From Neisseria bergeri (lineage in GTDB: Bacteria; Pseudomonadota; Gammaproteobacteria; Burkholderiales; Neisseriaceae): a stretch of DNA of 64,000 nucleotides. The stretch spans positions 1 to 64,000 of the forward strand of contig POWY01000008.1 of assembly GCA_003044455.1 (NCBI GenBank). The letters are read 5' to 3'. The stretch's first letter is position 1. The number at the start of each line of letters is the position of its first letter. Positions 6,301-60,663 of this stretch are shown piece by piece. Both the position numbers and the translations under genes were made by a program. The notes under the pieces are model-generated. The model was not told the origin of the DNA, searched no databases, and worked only from the letters and a program-made list of their open reading frames with translations.

Positions 6301-9248
6301 ATTTTAAATTTAAATCCGCAGACCGCGAGTTGTTGAAAATTAGCGCGGCCGGCGACACAGTTACCTTTACGCCGAAAAAAGGTTCTGTTCAGGTTGGCGA
6401 TGATGGTAAGGCTTCAATTTCAAAAGATGCAAATATAACCGACGGTTTGGTTGAAGCTTCCGAATTGGTTGAGAGCCTGAACAAACTGGGTTGGAAAGTC
6501 GGCGTTGAGAAAGACGGCACGGGAGCGATCGATGGCACGCATACCGATACTTTAGTGAAGTCGGGCGATAAAGTAACTTTGAAAGCCGGCGACAATCTGA
6601 AAGTCAAACAAGACGGCACAAACTTCACTTACACGCTCAAAGATGAATTGACGGGCGTGAAGAGCGTGGAGTTTAAAGACACGGCGAATGGTGCAAACGG
6701 TGCAAGCACGAAGATTACCAAAGACGGCTTGACCTTTACGCCGGCAACCGGCGCGAATGGTGCGGCGGCGACTGATGCCGACAAGATTAAAGTGGCTTCA
6801 GACGGCATCAGCGCGGGTAATAAAGCGGTTAAAAACGTTGTGAGCGGACTGAAAAAATTTGGTGATGGTCATACGTTGGCAAATGGTACTATTGCAGATT
6901 TTGAAAAGCATAATGATACAGCCTATAAAGGCTTGACCAATTTGGATGAAAAAGGCGAAAACAAGCAACTGGCTGTTGCCGACAATACCGCCGCAACCGT
7001 GGGCGATTTGCGCGGCTTGGGCTGGGTCATTTCTGCGGACAAAACCACAGGCGGCTCAAAGGAATATCACGATCAGGTGCGGAATGCGAACGAAGTGAAA
7101 TTCAAGAGCGGCAATGGTATCAATGTGTCCGGTAAAACATTGGATAACGGTACGCGTGAAATTACCTTTGAATTGGCTAAAGGCGAAGTGGTTAAATCGA
7201 ATGAATTTACCGTCAAAGAAACCAATGGCAAGGAAACGAGCTTGGTTAAAGTTGGCGATAAGTATTACAGCAAAGAGGATATTGACTTAACAACTGGTAA
7301 GCCAATTGATGGTAAAGCTGAGAAATATAAAGTTGAAAACGGCAAAATTGTTTCTGCTGACGGCAAGAATACCGAAGTTACCCTAACCAACAAAGGTTCC
7401 GGTTATGTTACAGGTAACCAAGTGGCAGATGCGATTGCGAAATCAGGCTTTGAGCTTGGTTTGGCTGACGCGGCAGAAGCTGAAAAAGCCTTTGCGGAAG
7501 ACAAGCAATTATCTAAAGATAAGGCGGAAACCGTAAATGCCAACGATAAAGTCCGTTTTGCCGACGGTAAAAATACCAAAGTGAGCGCGGCAACGGTGGA
7601 AAGCACCGATGCAAACGGCGAAAAAGTAACCACAACCTTTGTGAAAACCGATGTGGAATTGCCTTTAACGCAAATCTACAATACCGATGCAAACGGTAAG
7701 AAAATCACTAAAGTTGTCGCAAATGGTCAAACTAAATGGTATGAACTGAAAGATGACGGTTCGACTGATATGGACAAAGAAGTTACCCTCGGCAACGTGG
7801 ATTCAGACGGCAAGAAAGTTGTGAAAGACAACGATAAATGGTATCACGCCAAAGCTGACGGTACTGCGGATACATCAACACAAGCGGTTGATGATTCAAA
7901 AGTTTCCACCGATGAAAAACACGTTGTCAGCCTTGATCCGAACAATCAATCGAACGGTAAGGGCGTGGTCATTGACAATGTGGCTAATGGCGATATTTCG
8001 CCAAATAGCAAACAGGCGGTAAACGGCAGCCAGATTTTCGCATTGACCGGCAACAAAACACCGAATATCACGAGTATCACGGTAGATAAGGATGGTAAAA
8101 CGGTAAACGTCGGCACGGTCGGAAACGCGAACGATACCAACAAAACGTATCACAACGTCGTGGTGGGCGAAGACGGTAAAACCCCGTTATTGACCACTTA
8201 TAATGTGGAAGGCAGAAAAGAAGTCATCACCAATTCGGTGGTCGAAGCCATCTACAATATGAATGAGCAAGGGATTAAGTTCTTCCACTCCAACGACGGC
8301 AAAGCGACTAGCAGAATCGAACGAAGCAATGAAATCGATTCCAGCGCAAGCGGCAAATACGCGACGGCAATCGGCGCGAAAGCCGATGCGGCAGGCACTA
8401 ATGCCATTGCCTTCGGCTACGGCTCAAAAGCCTTGCGCGATAACACGGTGGCGATTGGTACGGGCAACGTTGTGAATGCGGAAAAATCCGGCGCATTCGG
8501 CGATCCGAACTACATCGAAGATGGTGCAAGCGGCAGCTACGCTTTCGGTAACGATAACCGTATTACTTCTAAAAACACGTTTGTGTTGGGTAATGGGGTT
8601 AATGCGAAATATAAAGCCAATGGCGAACTTGATACTGAAACCGCAACCGTTAAGGACAAAGACGGTCAAGAGACTACCGTTACCGTTCCTAAAGCGTTAG
8701 GGGCTACAGTTGAAAACTCTGTTTATCTGGGTAATAAATCGACCGCGACAAAAAATCCGGGCAGCAACCTGAAATCCGACGGCACGGCGGGTAATACCAC
8801 AACCGCCGGCGCGACGGGTACGGTAAACGGCTTTGCCGGCGCGACGGCGCACGGTGCGGTTTCTGTCGGCGCGAGCGGCGAAGAAAGACGTATCCAAAAC
8901 GTTGCGGCAGGCGAAATTTCCGCCACTTCCACCGATGCGATTAACGGCAGCCAGCTGTATGCGGCAACCAAAGGCATCGCCGATCAGGCCGTCGGTATGG
9001 TCAGGGCGTTGAAACGCGAATTGGAAGGCGTTGCCGCCGGTGCGAATGCCGCAGCCGCCTTGCCGCAATCGTACCTGCCCGGAAAATCGATGATTTCCGC
9101 CGCAACGGGCGCATACGGTTCGACAGGCGCACTCGCCGTCGGCTACTCCAGCATCAGCGACAACGGCAAATGGGTGGTCAAAGGCCAGCTCAACGTCAAT
9201 ACCCGAAGCAAAGCCGGCGGCGGTGTCGGCGTGGGCTATATCTGGTAA
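372..9248 (+). CDS. Giant Hsf/NhhA-type trimeric autotransporter adhesin (2958 aa)
   Basis: An outer-membrane trimeric autotransporter, expected to form a long surface fibre for adhesion. Residues 1-49 are an extended signal peptide: an ESPR region starting MNKIYRIIWN, almost identical to NhhA, then a hydrophobic core ending SATALA. The passenger is a long array of degenerate Hsf/NhhA modules with recurring elements such as ATVGDLRKLGWVLS, TFKAGKNLKVKQSGK and GDGLKV. Near residues 2655-2740 there are YadA-like head repeats (AIAFGYGSKA, AFGNDNRI). The last 75 or so residues form a YadA anchor (LPGKSM, then alternating barrel strands) and end in Trp. NhhA is about 600 aa and Haemophilus Hsf about 2400 aa, so this is an unusually large member. 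No strong Shine-Dalgarno is visible. An inverted uptake-sequence terminator follows directly. The reading frame is intact. Confidence 0.93.
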   Translation: MNKIYRIIWNSALNAWVVVSELTRNHTKRASATVATAVLATLLSATALASTTGSESEPNKEFDPSTPTFDDKFETDDSDSNETYKFGLAVVDKNGQLKDEEFENANDEDQGKRTISVEQSQGSEARPKLKSSYLYLRENGGIEIDQEGRSAKFKVKHGDGLKINDDDDKLVADTVELKVENGKVSTPSTGNNKKLVNADNLATTLNGLGWQLKTTNGAAAAGNGTPTTVKSGDEVEFKGEGGVTVTSSTTDGKHTVTIKAAQSANKGGAWKITADKEDGGELDPANTAPTEQEVKTGEKVTLKAGDNLKIKQSGKDFTYSLKKDLSGLTGVATKKLSIGENGDKVNIASDTKGLNFAKETAGANGDTTVHLNGIASTLTDTLSNTGVTTNLDGNGITDDEKKRAASVKDVLNAGWNIKGVKPGTTASDNVDFVRTYDTVEFLSADTKTTTVNVESKDNGRRTEVKIGAKTSVIAEKDGKLVTGNGDEGKGLVTAKTVIDAVNKSGWRVSGEGTAAENGATAVNASTAETVTSGTSVNFKNGNATTATVSKVTENGETKINVKYDVTTGDGLKVEGGKVVASVGDGLKLDNQKIVADTTKLTVTDGKVTAPNGTNGDTKKLVDAGSLADALNKLSWKAKADKDTDGEVDPTTATEQEVKAGETVTFKAGKNLKVKQSGKDFTYSLKDELTGLTSVTLGNTANGGTGANGASTKIDKDGLTITLANGAGATDANKISVTKDGISAGNKAITNVASGLKTYGDNQANAAGQAGNTVATAKNELIDLSQPNTGAAGTGTSVADTTAATVGDLRKLGWVLSADKTTNGTGTDTAFHAAVKNAEEVEFKGTGKATVSAKTENGKHTVTIDVAETKIEASDGIEKTTDGKIKLKVDNTDGNNVLTVDATKGASVAKGKLEVVSTTANGDKKGQVKAKGANGTDAATDKDVATVKDVADAINKAETFVKVENTTEDIEDAAANGADNTAEALKAGDTLTFKAGKNLKVKRSGKEITFDLAKNLDVKTATVSDKLSIGKDTNKVNVTSTADGLTFAKENGTPVAGSGAPDTRIYLNGIATTLTEPSAGAKSSHVDLNVDAAKKSHAASIEDVLRAGWNIQGNGNNVDYVATYDTVNFTDDGQGTTTVTVTQKDNGKGAEVKIGAKTSVIKDHNGKLFTGKDLKDANNGATVSEDDGKDTGNGLVTAKAVIDAVNKSGWRIKTTAANGQAGQAGDNFETVTSGTNVTFDNGNGTTASVTKDTSGNGITVKYDVNVGDGLKVDTATKKIVADTTTLTVNGAAATGAVDNTTPKGKVKEITSENDKKKLVKAGDLVTALNSLSWTATAGAEDGGEKEGNATEQEVKAGDKVTFKAGGNLKIKQSGKDFTYSLKKELKDLTSIELKGTANSGKNGASTKIDQNGLTITPAANGAGGTGAHNANTISVTKDGISVGGKTVKNVTSGLNAYGDTNNPNFNTTANSATDLERQLDTTGAYTGLLNLNEKGANKQPLVADSTAATVGDLRKLGWVLSSKNGTMNETSQQVKQADEVLFEGKGGAKVTSKSNNGKHTITIDVAETKVGDGLEKDNDGKIKVKAKDGADNLLTVDANGASVAKGSFETVKTDAPNAGTTADTNRGKVVVKASNGTDATDDDKKKVATVGDVAEAINSAATFVKVESTEDEIEDNQPADNADQALKAGDTLTLKAGKNLKVKRDGKNVTFALAKDLDVKTAKVSDTLTIGGNIPTDGGAATPKVNITSTAGGLNFENAIADATGSKNVYLKGIATTLTEPSAGAKSSHVDLNVDAAKKSNAASIEDVLRAGWNIKGAKTVGGAVQNVDFVSTYDTVEFASGTNANVSVTTDDHKKTTVRVDVTGLPVQYVTEDDKTVVKVGNKYYEAKDDGSADMNKQVENGKLATTKVKLVSASGKDPVKISNVADGTEDTDAVSFKQLKALKDQKVTLTASNAYANGGADTDDGKATQTLSNGLNFKFKSADRELLKISAAGDTVTFTPKKGSVQVGDDGKASISKDANITDGLVEASELVESLNKLGWKVGVEKDGTGAIDGTHTDTLVKSGDKVTLKAGDNLKVKQDGTNFTYTLKDELTGVKSVEFKDTANGANGASTKITKDGLTFTPATGANGAAATDADKIKVASDGISAGNKAVKNVVSGLKKFGDGHTLANGTIADFEKHNDTAYKGLTNLDEKGENKQLAVADNTAATVGDLRGLGWVISADKTTGGSKEYHDQVRNANEVKFKSGNGINVSGKTLDNGTREITFELAKGEVVKSNEFTVKETNGKETSLVKVGDKYYSKEDIDLTTGKPIDGKAEKYKVENGKIVSADGKNTEVTLTNKGSGYVTGNQVADAIAKSGFELGLADAAEAEKAFAEDKQLSKDKAETVNANDKVRFADGKNTKVSAATVESTDANGEKVTTTFVKTDVELPLTQIYNTDANGKKITKVVANGQTKWYELKDDGSTDMDKEVTLGNVDSDGKKVVKDNDKWYHAKADGTADTSTQAVDDSKVSTDEKHVVSLDPNNQSNGKGVVIDNVANGDISPNSKQAVNGSQIFALTGNKTPNITSITVDKDGKTVNVGTVGNANDTNKTYHNVVVGEDGKTPLLTTYNVEGRKEVITNSVVEAIYNMNEQGIKFFHSNDGKATSRIERSNEIDSSASGKYATAIGAKADAAGTNAIAFGYGSKALRDNTVAIGTGNVVNAEKSGAFGDPNYIEDGASGSYAFGNDNRITSKNTFVLGNGVNAKYKANGELDTETATVKDKDGQETTVTVPKALGATVENSVYLGNKSTATKNPGSNLKSDGTAGNTTTAGATGTVNGFAGATAHGAVSVGASGEERRIQNVAAGEISATSTDAINGSQLYAATKGIADQAVGMVRALKRELEGVAAGANAAAALPQSYLPGKSMISAATGAYGSTGALAVGYSSISDNGKWVVKGQLNVNTRSKAGGGVGVGYIW
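3573..3655 (+). repeat. 83-bp perfect direct repeat inside the adhesin gene (partner 5685-5767)
   Basis: The 83 bases at 3573-3655 recur without change at 5685-5767, 2112 bp (704 codons) downstream and in the same frame. They encode the module around LTEPSAGAKSS and DLNVDAAKKS. The surrounding sequence is similar but diverged, so the exact identity suggests recent module duplication or gene conversion. Recombination between the copies would remove 704 residues in frame. Confidence 0.9.
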
Positions 9249-21330: not shown

Positions 21331-21407
21331 GCACCCGTAGCTCAGTTGGATAGAGTATCTGGCTACGAACCAGAGGGTCGGGCGTTCGAATCGCTCCGGG
21401 TGCGCCA
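21331..21407 (+). tRNA. tRNA-Arg(ACG)
   Basis: A 77-nt cloverleaf with the encoded CCA end. The anticodon loop CTACGAA gives anticodon ACG (read as ICG). The T-arm has the expected GTTCGAATC. An identical copy on the opposite strand is at 60587-60663. Confidence 0.97.
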
Positions 21408-21424
21408 GTAAGAAAATACAATAT

Positions 21425-21499
21425 GCGCCCATCGTCTAGCGGTTAGGACATCGCCCTTTCACGGCGGTAACCGGGGTTCGATTCCCCGTGGGCGTGCCA
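21425..21499 (+). tRNA. tRNA-Glu(TTC)
   Basis: A 75-nt cloverleaf with encoded CCA; the anticodon loop is CTTTCAC, anticodon TTC. It is 17 bases after tRNA-Arg and shares its transcript. The acceptor stem starts with a G-U pair. An identical copy is at 60495-60569. Confidence 0.97.
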
Positions 21500-57098: not shown

Positions 57099-57884
57099 TC
57101 AGTCGGCGATAAAGCCGTCTATCGGCGCGTAGCCCCGTGCATTTCCCTGCGCGTCCAGCACCACGATCCAATCTTTCTGCCTGCTGCCGGTAAAGGGCAG
57201 GAAATACCAGTCTTTATCTTCGGAAATATCTGCCTGCTTCAAAATATCGGCAACGGCGATTTTTCTCACATCTGCCAATTTTTTCAGCGGCTTCATCGCC
57301 TTACGGATTTTCTCCGCCTCTTGACGGGAATACGGCAGCCACCGGTCCGGGCGCATACTCGGCTCTATGCCCTGCATAGACAAATCCAAGGTTTTGTTTT
57401 GTTCGTCCGCCGTATCCGGCTCTTTCAGCCCGACGCGGCGGATGCCGAACCACGACAGGCTTTGCAGCCCTTCCGGCGCTTTGTGCAAATCTTCAACCGC
57501 CACTTCGGCGGCGGTTACAATATTAATCCTGTCTTTTTCAAACGCCTCTATCACGGGGCGCGCCAAAGAAACGCTGTGCAGACCGTATGCCAATGCGGCA
57601 AGCTGAATCGCGCCGGTCAGGGAAAAATCCACGATCCGCGCCCTGCTTGTCTTTTTCGGACTGGACAATATCAGCGTCAGCAGCGGGCCGCACACGATGT
57701 CCACTGCCACCACCAGCTGATAAAGCGACAGACCGCCCGTCAGCTCGGCATAAGGATAAGGATACCAAACCTTAAAAACCAGCAATGCCGCCAGCCCTGC
57801 AACCGATAGGCTGATTAAGAGGTGCCAGCCCGCACTTTTCAAGGCAAAACGCCATCTCGAAACTGTTTTTCCGTTTTCCATCAT
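57099..57884 (-). CDS. TfpX/TfpZ-family type IV pilin accessory protein
   Basis: A 261-aa inner-membrane protein with three or four helices in the first 110 residues (GWHLLISLSVAGLAALLVFKVWY, then LYQLVVAVDIVCGPLLTLIL) and a periplasmic remainder. It resembles the TfpX/TfpZ accessory proteins of pilins in Pseudomonas and Moraxella, which help assemble particular pilin types. ATG codons at 57884 and 57881 compete. No pilin gene is nearby. It borders the cmr remnants. Confidence 0.85.
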   Translation of the reverse strand: MMENGKTVSRWRFALKSAGWHLLISLSVAGLAALLVFKVWYPYPYAELTGGLSLYQLVVAVDIVCGPLLTLILSSPKKTSRARIVDFSLTGAIQLAALAYGLHSVSLARPVIEAFEKDRINIVTAAEVAVEDLHKAPEGLQSLSWFGIRRVGLKEPDTADEQNKTLDLSMQGIEPSMRPDRWLPYSRQEAEKIRKAMKPLKKLADVRKIAVADILKQADISEDKDWYFLPFTGSRQKDWIVVLDAQGNARGYAPIDGFIAD

Positions 57885-57989: not shown

Positions 57990-57992
57990 CCT

Positions 57993-58410
57993 TCACCCGA
58001 TATCAATGCACAGATATTTCAAGTCCCAATATGCCGCACCGTCGTCAAAGGCTTTCGGCGCAAAGCGGACAAGTTGGATCTGATTGCTTTCTTTGTTTCT
58101 CAAATATAGGGTGTTGGCAGGCTTAGGCAATAAAATCCTTATGCCGTCTGAAGCGTCCCTGTTCTCCCAAAACGCACCCTGCACGGGGATCAGGCGCAAT
58201 CCTGCTGCCTGTTTGCCCGACAATCCGGCACGGTTGCCCCAGATTTCATCCGCCCAATCCCAAGGCACATAACATAACCTGCGCGCGTACCAAACCTGCG
58301 GCGGCAGATGGCAGGGAGAATTGGATGTCATCGATATCCGACTGCGCGCCAAATGGTTTGCCGCTGCGGAATACCAAGGGTGCTGATGCATCTAAAAAAT
58401 AGCTGTTCAT
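57993..58410 (-). pseudogene. cmr3: cmr3 remnant (type III-B CRISPR RAMP protein)
   Basis: Starts with a good Shine-Dalgarno (AGGAAGTG) and MNSYFLDASAPLVFRSGKPF, followed by FSLPSAAAGLVRAQ, the N-terminal signature of Cmr3 (SGKPF then a phase in which the chain reads SAAAG). The frame shifts after about 50 codons, and the second frame carries GLSGKQAAGLRLIPVQGAFW and ILLPKPANTLYLRNKES, ending at 57993 after CIDIG. Cmr3 is normally over 300 aa, so the 3' half is missing as well. It points the same way as the cmr1 5' fragment (59776-60134) and opposite to the cmr2 piece. Not functional. Confidence 0.7.
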
Positions 58411-58487
58411 GATTGCACTTCCTGTCCTCAATCTTTTTGCAAGCCAGCGGGCGATAATCAATTCGACAGCCAATACTTGGAAGCGCA

Positions 58488-58622
58488 TCAGAAAAAACGG
58501 ATAGCGACATATGCGGTAAAAGCAAGGGCAATTACATAGATAAACCCCTTTATAAATTCAAAAGTCTCATCTATATCGCTATATTTTTCTTTCAGTTCGT
58601 CAGATTTTCGATAACGTTTCAT
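58488..58622 (-). CDS. Small predicted membrane protein at a rearrangement junction (44 aa)
   Basis: A 44-codon frame starting MKRYRKSDELKEKYSD with a C-terminal hydrophobic helix (GFIYVIALAFTAYVAIRFF). It begins at the point where the cmr1 3' fragment starts on the other strand, so its first codons may be formed by the rearrangement. No clear Shine-Dalgarno or family. Possibly a phage-derived small gene or no gene at all. Confidence 0.35.
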   Translation of the reverse strand: MKRYRKSDELKEKYSDIDETFEFIKGFIYVIALAFTAYVAIRFF

Positions 58623-58788
58623 TTTCAAGACCACTCCAGGCGGATTGGGTGGCCGCACTAGACGTGGTTGTGGTGCATTCAAGGCAGAAGGTATAGAACT
58701 GGTTTCGATTCATGAAATGCGTAAATTGGGTTGCAAAATTTCATATTCAGCCGTCCGGTTTATGAAAGCGGTCGATGGAGTGGGATGA
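58615..58788 (+). pseudogene. cmr1: cmr1 3' fragment (glycine-rich loop of a RAMP protein)
   Basis: An open frame without a start, reading GGLGGRTRRGCGAFKAEG and ending MKAVDGVG, stop at 58786-58788. GLGGRTRRGxGAF is the C-terminal glycine-rich loop of Cmr1 and related RAMP proteins that bind crRNA or stabilise the complex. It ends 55 bp before the cmr2 start, as in intact cmr1-cmr2 operons. The matching 5' part of cmr1 lies at 59776-60134 on the opposite strand, so the gene is split by an inversion. Confidence 0.7.
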
Positions 58789-58843
58789 TTATTCTATTGT
58801 CGAACAGCAGTCAGGAAGTCAAATAAATTTTGGAGAAAACAAA

Positions 58844-59224
58844 ATGACCCAATACGTTTTAATCTTATCCGTCGAACCCGTGCAGGGGTTTATCGCTTCA
58901 GCGCGTCGCAGCAGGGATTTGTGGAGCGGTTCGTGGCTGCTGTCGGAAACCGCAAAGGTGGCGGCAAAGTGTTTGTTTGAGGCAGGTGCCTGGATGGTGT
59001 TTCCATTCGTGGGAAAGCCGGTCTCCCTTAATCCTTGCGATACGATGGAAAATAATTTTTCGGTCGGTAATAAGATTTAAGTGCAGATTGATACGGCTGA
59101 CGATGCTGTCGTCCGTGAATTGGTCGGACGGGCAAAATCAGCGGCGCAAGTTGGGGAAGAAAGAATTGGAAGTCCACCTCGAGAAACTGCAACAGCAGCT
59201 TGGCGACAGACAGACCGATGCACT
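58844..59224 (+). pseudogene. cmr2: cmr2/cas10 5' fragment (type III-B)
   Basis: Starts with GGAGAAAACAAAATG and MTQYVLILSVEPVQGFI, then ASARRSRDLWSGSWLLSETAK, the typical N-terminus of Cmr2 (Cas10 of type III-B). A TAA at 59078-59080 interrupts the frame after 78 codons; beyond it the same frame goes on as QIDTADDAVVRELVGRAKSAAQ, and then a shift leads to KELEVHLEKLQQQLGDRQTD. Cmr2 sequence stops near 59224 where phage tape-measure sequence begins. The HD and GGDD domains are absent. Only about 15 percent of a normal gene remains. Confidence 0.78.
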
Positions 59225-59692
59225 CAATTGTTTTTCAAACTGTCGGTTGGTCTGCTCCAAGCGGTTTTTCAAATCTTTTTGGGTTTTTGCCAGATTGTCG
59301 GTGGATATGCCCGCCGCCTTCATGTCTTTGGCAAGTCGGGCTGTGCTTTTGATCTGCCTCTTTTGGGTCTGCTCTAGGTTTTCGGCTTGGCGGGCGAGTT
59401 TGTTCATTTCGCGGCTTTGGGCTGCGGTTGCGCCGCCGCCTTTTTTCATTTCTGCCAAAAGTTCTTTTTGCCTGTTGCGGTTTTCGGACAGTTTTTTGCT
59501 TATTTCGTTAAGGTTGTTTCGGTAGCGTTCGAGCTTTTGGACATCGTTCAGGGCTTTGTTGAGGCGGATTTGCTCTTGCTCGGTCTTTTTGATGTTGCCG
59601 CCCAAGACGCTTGCGGCTTTGCTGATGCGCTGGAACTGTCCGCTTGCTTTGTCGGCAGCTTTGAGAATAATATTTATGATCTTGTTGGTCAT
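59225..59692 (-). pseudogene. Mu-like phage tail tape-measure protein, 5' fragment
   Basis: Starts MTNKIINIILKAADKASG, then ISKAASVLGGNIKKTEQEQ and a Gln/Lys/Glu-rich coiled coil (KLSENRNRQKELLAEMKKG), as in the N-termini of tail tape-measure proteins from neisserial Mu-like prophages, which run to over 700 aa. It ends in cmr2 sequence after about 156 codons. The 83 bp before the start (59693-59775) also read like the end of a phage tail gene (SRAMAFGW on the minus strand). Not functional; inserted between two cmr pieces. Confidence 0.75.
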
Positions 59693-59775
59693 GAAGTGAC
59701 CCACTGGCGCAAAGTTTCCAAAACCTGCTGTTTGTCCACGTCATTTGCTCTTCCACCCAAACGCCATTGCACGAC

Positions 59776-60134
59776 TCATTGCAAACCTTCCTTACCCAAT
59801 TTCATTTCAAGTAATCCTGTCCTTGTCTTACGAGCCGTAAACAAAACATAACCCAAAGGATCATTTAGTCCTTCTGCATAATTAGAAAGTGAAGCACTTT
59901 GCAGCTTATTTGTTACATGTGCACGCAAAAATACTAAGCTGGCTGCGGCCTCTTCTCCGATACCACCCCACAAACAAAGTTCCGCTTCGCGCAGGCTTTT
60001 ACTGCTCAAATTTCATTTGTGTTTTGCCGACAACCGCCATGCAAGGGCGTAACCAGTTCGCAACGAATTTCATGCCAAGCATCCCTGCTTTCAGCCAGTG
60101 CCGGAGGAGCAAAATCAAGTATCAGCAAAGTCAT
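59776..60134 (-). pseudogene. cmr1: cmr1 5' fragment (type III-B)
   Basis: From the ATG at 60132-60134 the frame reads MTLLILDFAPP and then AWHEIRCELVTPLHGG, the start of Cmr1 (a first strand, then VTPLxGG), and stops at NTNEI. In the next frame follows SLREAELCLWGGIGEEAAASLVFLRAHVTNK split by family positions EAELxxWGG, and DPLGYVLFTARKT, with a stop at 59776. About 40 codons between the two blocks, which should carry the RGQLRFWW-like motif, have been lost. The gene's 3' end lies at 58615-58788 on the other strand. Confidence 0.7.
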
Positions 60135-60457
60135 TTTTTCGTCCTTTGTTGTTTAAGCGATGAGGTTCTTTATAAGAGAAATAAATATATTTCGTACCAT
60201 CCACAAATTTGTCAACTTTCGACGAAACATTCAAATAGAAAACCTTAGCAGCCTGCCTGTCATTTCTACTTTTAAAGACGATATAAAAAGAAAATAAACA
60301 GATACGGTTACTAGAAATAGAAAGAAAGAAACATTCAGCGTGCCGAATTGGAAACGATACAGTATTGCCTTGCTGCGCCGTCTATACTGTCAGAGGTTTT
60401 GTCGCCCGTCCCGATTTTTATGAATCGACTATATGTCCGCATATGCAAACAGAAATG
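60135..60457. other. Intergenic region with a degenerate Correia fragment
   Basis: AT-rich, no gene. At 60363-60433 a diverged Correia-like end is recognisable (CTGTCAGAGG.TTTTGTCGCC, then CGACTATA). No CRISPR repeats or leader could be seen next to the cmr1 fragment. Confidence 0.5.
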
Positions 60458-60494: not shown

Positions 60495-60569
60495 TGGCAC
60501 GCCCACGGGGAATCGAACCCCGGTTACCGCCGTGAAAGGGCGATGTCCTAACCGCTAGACGATGGGCGC
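60495..60569 (-). tRNA. tRNA-Glu(TTC), second copy
   Basis: Identical over 75 nt to the copy at 21425-21499, on the opposite strand. CCA end encoded. Confidence 0.97.
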
Positions 60570-60586
60570 ATGTTGTGTATTCTTGT

Positions 60587-60663
60587 TGGCGCACCCGGAG
60601 CGATTCGAACGCCCGACCCTCTGGTTCGTAGCCAGATACTCTATCCAACTGAGCTACGGGTGC
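60587..60663 (-). tRNA. tRNA-Arg(ACG), second copy
   Basis: Identical over 77 nt to the copy at 21331-21407, opposite strand. The spacer to tRNA-Glu is again 17 nt but differs at several positions from that of the first copy. Confidence 0.97.

Follow-up and report, generated by a model that had tools for sequence, protein, structure and literature searches.

What did the four short Cmr protein signatures between positions 57990 and 60140 belong to, and how did that locus come to its present state? The window, that is, the whole stretch of DNA that was analysed, comprises the first 64,000 bases of contig C8 in a draft genome of 40 contigs (G000). It was compared with the genomes of the genus Neisseria in a set of 46, G000 included. 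Five of these (G008, G014, G019, G022 and G039) have a DNA match to the left flank of the locus and are referred to here as the relatives. To judge from its sequence, the window holds dead fragments of cmr1, cas10/cmr2 and cmr3 from a type III-B operon. It is a well-resolved CRISPR fossil, and there is no new mechanism in it.

Pieces of cmr1, cas10 and cmr3 in the window

The features around the signatures, with their flanks, are as follows.

57099..57884, minus strand: left flanking gene of 261 aa without a Pfam match, directly after gabD in all five compared relatives
57993..58031, minus strand: 3' end of gabD (succinate-semialdehyde dehydrogenase), in frame with the cmr3 fragment to which it is fused; matches the gabD 3' ends of all five relatives up to 58042
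58032..58412, minus strand: 5' part of cmr3 up to about codon 127, frameshifted after codon 46; 73% DNA identity to G018 cmr3 (tblastn E 6e-39)
58410..58476, minus strand: 3' end of cas10, which overlaps the start of cmr3 just as it does in the intact operon
58479..58638, minus strand: prophage piece P1, a spacer that includes a small ORF of 44 aa; G000:C3, G039:C11 and G019 have places with 98-99% identity to it
58639..58788, plus strand: middle of cmr1 with the glycine loop GGLGGRTRRGCGAF, within the putative small inversion; tblastx E 3e-5 to G031 6365-6406
58844..59155, plus strand: cas10/cmr2 codons 1 to about 104, within the putative small inversion; 77% DNA identity to G031, and profile matches
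59156..59228, plus strand: cas10 codons about 569-592 (G018 numbering); 70% DNA identity to G018 cas10 nt 1704-1776 (E 1.9e-4)
59229..59698, minus strand: prophage piece P2, about 155 codons from the 5' end of a tail tape-measure gene; PHROG 28, E 2e-20
59699..60134, minus strand: cmr1 codons 1-35 and 61 to about 175 (G031 numbering); 74-79% DNA identity to G031 cmr1
60135..60213, minus strand: cmr1 upstream region, homologous to G031
60495..60663, minus strand: tRNA-Glu and tRNA-Arg, the right flank; cmr1 of G031 likewise comes after a tRNA-Glu

All four signatures lie where the initial annotation had placed them and stand above chance: the cmr1 start at 60134 (minus strand), the cmr1 glycine loop at 58639-58680 (plus strand), the Cas10/Cmr2 start at 58844 (plus strand) and the Cmr3 start at 58410 (minus strand). 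Profile searches, proposed there as a check, gave a divided answer. The Cas10 N-terminus is recognized by PADLOC (Cas10b, 8.6e-15), by Pfam above the cut-off (Cmr2_N, 2.1e-12) and by NCBIfam under the whole-protein cut-off of the model concerned (TIGR02577, 1.2e-10). The Cmr3 N-terminus is found by PADLOC (2.4e-5), with weak scores in Pfam (0.01) and NCBIfam (0.086) that are both under cut-off, and the cmr1 pieces match no profile in any of the three libraries. The latter were therefore identified through alignment to intact Neisseria cmr1. Here the 5' part gives a tblastn E of 8.9e-50 and the glycine loop a tblastx E of 3e-5 over 14 residues; the middle piece has no blastn match to the intact genes and, past the loop, a weak match judged by eye.

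The weak Cmr3 scores and the lack of a profile match for the cmr1 pieces could be taken to mean that the similarity is due to chance or that another family is involved. However, five of the six pieces have a DNA identity of 70-79% to open Neisseria genes, the sixth being the glycine-loop piece of cmr1. With cmr1, cas10 and cmr3 queries, tblastn scores on the real stretch 57990-60140 range from 86 to 162 bits, while the best scores on 200 two-base-block shuffles of that stretch are 23.9-33.5 bits. Together with the intact relatives of the locus, which refute it, these values make a chance or foreign origin of the similarity practically negligible.

About 1.42 kb of the 4.28 kb of cmr1-cas10-cmr3 is still present in the window. 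The cmr1 5' part and cmr3 are found on the minus strand, the cmr1 middle and cas10 on the plus strand, and the pieces are therefore not collinear as they stand; the order cmr1-cmr2-cmr3 earlier ascribed to them does not hold for the window. Read along the minus strand from the tRNA side, the cmr1 5' part is followed by the 5' end of the tape-measure gene, the reversed cas10 and cmr1 middle pieces, the prophage spacer, the cas10 end, cmr3 and the end of gabD. The 55-bp gap between cmr1 and cmr2, which had been cited as evidence for an operon, was rejected as a native spacing: where the two genes are intact, 1 bp (G031) or 17 bp (G018, G023) separates them, and the 3' part of cmr1, roughly 165 of 402 codons as judged by eye, is missing at this point. 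The gap is to be read as a deletion scar.

The frameshifts, the stop and the large deletions claimed in the initial annotation are all seen. In addition to the frameshift in cmr3, the cmr1 5' piece has an internal deletion and in-frame stops, and the cas10 piece 58844..59155 contains a stop codon at 59078-59080. About 465 codons of cas10 (codons about 105-568) are missing, the 5' part being joined to codon 569 or thereabouts. The palm of Cas10 with its GGDD motif, which we take to be the palm signature and which is visible in the Cas10 translations of G018 and G023, is thereby gone from the window. The frame 58775-59080 is open as an ORF of 101 aa that carries the Cas10 N-terminus, and the start of Cas10 is well conserved, so that a leftover fragment of this kind could be imagined to be still made in a new role. 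This is highly improbable, given that there is no palm or GGDD motif, that partners, Cas6 and repeats were not found, and that the other pieces have stops or frameshifts. Most likely, the remains are without a function of their own.

Counterparts in other Neisseria and missing components

Cas10/Cmr2 exceeds the curated cut-off in three of the 46 genomes (G018, G023 and G031), and nine have a Cas10 match at E <= 0.001: these three, G000, and further G010, G016, G020, G034 and G038. The last five match the end of the Cas10/Cmr2 profile only, in frames of 883-963 aa, and their Cmr4 matches are under cut-off. They were discounted as III-B and probably represent a different form of type III. In G034, G016, G038 and G010, cas1 is matched no more than about 10 kb from the Cas10-like frame; in G023 there is no Cas1 match.

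Cmr1, Cas10, Cmr4, Cmr5, Cmr6 and a ring nuclease are all over the NCBIfam cut-offs in G018. Cmr3 of this genome reaches 98.0 bits against an NCBIfam cut-off of 100.4, and its Cas6 and CARF-PDDEXK nuclease match no NCBIfam model. PADLOC names all proteins of the locus, with a Csm3 model ranking above Cmr1 for the Cmr1 protein. G023 (N. sicca C2010005502, NZ_POXG01000001) has homologous open frames for the III-B genes, and arrays of a 36-nt repeat occur in both genomes. Thus, III-B loci with a CARF nuclease and a ring nuclease are documented in other Neisseria. On the basis of what is known of the family, Cas6 would make the crRNAs in the intact system and the Cmr complex would recognize target RNA, upon which the Cas10 palm would make cyclic oligoadenylate and the CARF nuclease would respond to it. 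The repeats of the III-B arrays (L040 4773-6804, L041 6089-6405) vary at two middle bases, GAT-NN-GTGGGG (TA, TC, GA, GC, AC, AA, GG); such variation from copy to copy is unusual for CRISPR repeats.

Alignment of the loci in G018 and G023 with the remnant gives the same homologous cmr1, cas10, cmr3 and CARF-PDDEXK nuclease genes, in the same order and relative orientation. They differ in content and in place: G018 and G023 have open cmr1-6 and Cas6 frames and arrays, whereas most genes of the remnant are gone, and their loci are near the tmRNA gene, at a distance of a few kb, and not at tRNA-Glu; the one in G018 is accompanied by a tyrosine integrase. The closest cmr1 allele, with 74-79% DNA identity, is that of G031, a Neisseria MAG (JAUMUU010000080), where the gene also comes right after a tRNA-Glu. 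Unlike in the remnant, its cmr1 and cas10 frames are open, and the genes beyond the tRNA differ; the contig of this 83% complete MAG ends at the end of cas10. The tyrosine integrase of G018 overlaps the end of the tmRNA gene near the intact III-B locus (L040 17083-18631), which suggests that this locus is on an island at ssrA.

Comparison with related genomes had been suggested as a way to find an intact cmr operon. Open operons are indeed present in G018 and G023, but the five relatives have no DNA match to any cmr or other cas gene of the N. sicca locus (four matched only between genes and one nowhere). Neither is there a Cas10/Cmr2 or Cmr4 profile match in any of them. The view that III-B is unusual in this species group agrees with the relatives compared. 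However, III-A, III-B and III-D type repeats have been reported among the arrays of commensal Neisseria (PMC9238386), so that III-B in the genus is not new. Among the literature matches listed, which covered titles and the starts of abstracts, with preprints and most subscription papers outside the scope, no account of a degraded III-B locus in Neisseria is present.

The Cmr4 profile, which is over cut-off in two of the 46 genomes (G018 and G023) and matches seven at E <= 0.001, has no match in G000. Searches of G000 with the Cmr6 protein and with Cas6 of G018, both of them with no positive genome as control, gave no match either. At the DNA level, a query with the N. sicca locus that began at the nuclease gene and reached as far as cmr1 gave no G000 match in cmr4 or cmr6. 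Cmr5 was matched neither by the DNA search nor by tblastn, the latter limited to the fetched stretches. For cmr4, cmr5, cmr6, cas6 and the nuclease, no query scored higher in the window than on the shuffles. The 36-nt repeat, with up to 3 mismatches allowed, is found in two of the 46 genomes, and G000 is not one of them. Nothing in the remnant can work as a III-B system: it has broken frames and no Cas10 palm, and the searches of G000 detected no Cmr4, Cmr6, Cas6 or repeats.

G000 also has a type II-C-like system, in which a Cas9 of 1,081 aa is accompanied by a type II Cas1 and an array with 5 or more repeats; this genome has kept type II-C while III-B was lost. Another CRISPR type in ruins is seen on the 4.3-kb contig C30 of G000, where a DarT-DarG toxin-antitoxin pair (L176 943-4090; NCBIfam equivalogs over cut-off) lies between two cas1 5' fragments that match type I-C best.

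The prophage insert and a probable small inversion

The stretch 59229-59698 was considered as further cmr sequence and rejected, as it is a fragment of a tape-measure gene (PHROG 28, 2e-20). This piece, P2, is 65-70% identical to five IMG/VR viral contigs, and its alignment to L051 begins at 59228; a search of a phage DNA collection with the insert gave no DNA match. Together, the spacer and the 5' end of the tape-measure gene make up an insert of about 630 bp in cas10, near codon 592. The cas10 sequence breaks off at G018 nt 1776 on one side and resumes at 1780 on the other, as in a nearly clean insertion. In two other places, G000:C3 and G039:C11, P1 and P2 abut with an overlap of 4 bases (L048 11369-11372; L050 6953-6956). 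In G019, 18 bases from the start of the tape-measure gene come after the spacer, which lies next to what resembles, by eye, the upstream phage gene.

From this arrangement we infer that the segment 58639-59698 (1,060 bp) has been inverted. When the inversion is undone, cmr1 is rejoined and the prophage DNA becomes contiguous: the cmr1 5' piece stops at G031 6357 and the reversed piece starts at 6365. Both this continuity and the abutting prophage pieces fit a single inversion of 58639-59698 bounded on both sides by the four bases CACT, of which cmr1 and the prophage piece would each have supplied one copy. That cmr1 carried CACT before it was broken is deduced from its two halves, and G031 cmr1 differs there. 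Almost no bases would have been lost in such an event.

The part on contig C1 and a probable large inversion

More of the locus is recovered by alignment on contig C1, at G000:C1:335662-336599 (335662-336008 and 336011-336599), directly after a complete gabD and followed by mnmC and ubiE. Here gabD and mnmC were named through profile searches, and recN and ubiE are the names that we presume for flanking genes. The stretch contains cmr3 codons 207-323, codons 158-324 of the 426-aa CARF-PDDEXK nuclease and a short match to codons 130-163 (123-165 in a further search) of the 880-aa gene that lies upstream of the CARF nuclease. The order and strand are those of G018 minus cmr4-6, cas6 and the arrays. 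The DNA query with the N. sicca stretch between nuclease gene and cmr1, both included, finds two places in G000 outside C8, both of them on C1. Between the two parts of cmr3, the codons from about 128 to 206 are missing. The claim of a once complete III-B locus that is now dead is borne out by the open homologous operons in the genus and by the C8 and C1 remnants, which are collinear with them if the rearrangements are allowed for. The C1 part, the gabD fusion, the prophage insert and the small inversion are absent from the initial annotation.

In four of the five relatives (G008, G014, G019 and G039), recN and mnmC are on one stretch, the contig of G022 ending early, and in all five gabD adjoins the 261-aa gene. 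G000 has other joins: the stretch from recN through the tRNA and cmr1 to the start of cmr3 runs into the 261-aa gene, and gabD is followed by the remaining part of cmr3 and, further on, by mnmC. The two loci are oppositely oriented and about 590 kb apart in G008 and about 707 kb in G019; the opposite orientation is what a single inversion needs. The gene order of the relatives points to an inversion of approximately 0.6-0.7 Mb, with one end inside cmr3. The exchange is not exact to the base. The end of gabD aligns over 24-44 bp on both sides, and the breakpoint between cmr3 and gabD is ambiguous, from about 58020 to 58042. The ORF 57993-58391, which was considered as cmr3 throughout and rejected as such, is the cmr3 fragment fused to the gabD end. 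On C1, some 135 bp between gabD and cmr3 have no other match in the 46 genomes. With the gabD-cmr3 stretch as the query, four other genomes match, in 29 bases of the gabD end only. No repeats were found in the C1 stretch behind gabD, and a search near the C1 part for a repeated tRNA-Glu end, as a possible second attachment site, gave matches of only 11 bases.

All junctions were read from one genome of the species, a draft in 40 contigs, and the small prophage ORF is present on C3 as well (98%), so that the junctions might be thought to be assembly errors that hide a simpler remnant in the real genome. The repeated P1 stretch, however, is only about 160 bp long and differs from the copy on C3, the cmr3/gabD joint shows no more than a short, imperfect similarity, and both sides of each exchange are found with complementary content. 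An artefact of assembly is therefore very improbable.

Another reading is that there was never a working operon here, and that pieces already broken were imported by natural transformation from other Neisseria. The genus is known for its natural competence and readily takes up DNA, none of the five compared relatives has a cmr gene match, and a prophage piece is mixed in. Nevertheless, the C8 and C1 pieces taken together follow the intact operon collinearly, and their flanks, tRNA-Glu and mnmC, are those expected of a single insertion, which piecemeal import would not be likely to produce; we consider this reading very unlikely, though slightly less so than an assembly error.

The reconstruction that we prefer, and regard as very probable, is that of a III-B locus between tRNA-Glu and mnmC lost via deletions, frameshifts, a prophage insert and two inversions. 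A complete Cmr locus would once have stood between the tRNA-Glu that comes after recN and mnmC, in the order cmr1-cas10-cmr3-(cmr4-6, cas6, arrays)-CARF nuclease, of which the bracketed part is modelled on the intact relatives. It would have been lost through deletions and frameshifts, and about 630 bp of a tailed prophage, the spacer with the tape-measure 5' end, would have been inserted near the 3' end of cas10. An inversion between CACT in cmr1 and CACT in the prophage piece would have flipped 58639-59698. Either earlier or later, the large chromosomal inversion would have cut through cmr3, so that its first part now meets the gabD end and the remainder, with the nuclease remnant, is on C1. 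What the pieces are, how they are ordered and oriented, what lies on C1 and which intact loci correspond to them is shown by the alignments themselves; the sequence of events and the two inversions belong to the reconstruction. Degraded CRISPR-Cas loci in general share deletions, stops and mobile DNA in former cas genes with this remnant; here, in contrast, both products of a large rearrangement can still be read. The locus may serve as an example of III-B loss in which gene deletions and prophage DNA in cas10 are combined with a local and a large chromosomal inversion that splits the operon.

Both proposed inversions, of about 1 kb and about 0.6-0.7 Mb, have an end within this one dead operon, and the smaller is nearly lossless. 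It could also be imagined, on this basis, that the operon was taken apart by active recombination and not by passive decay. For example, a phage invertase might have used short sites within cmr1 and the prophage piece, or a tRNA-linked hotspot might have been rearranged repeatedly. We give this idea as little weight as the import of broken pieces.

Finally, the interval between tRNA-Glu and mnmC varies among the relatives. In G039 (L171 5451-10889) it holds a transposase-like ORF and two large ORFs, which we take to resemble a type III restriction-modification system, and in G008 no ORF listed for it reaches 70 aa. This stretch between the two genes may be a hotspot for defence genes. An Rfam search of the window returned tRNAs only. 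Two tRNA-Arg/tRNA-Glu pairs (21331-21499 and 60495-60663) are present in it, in opposite orientation and about 39 kb apart, and their tRNAs are identical.
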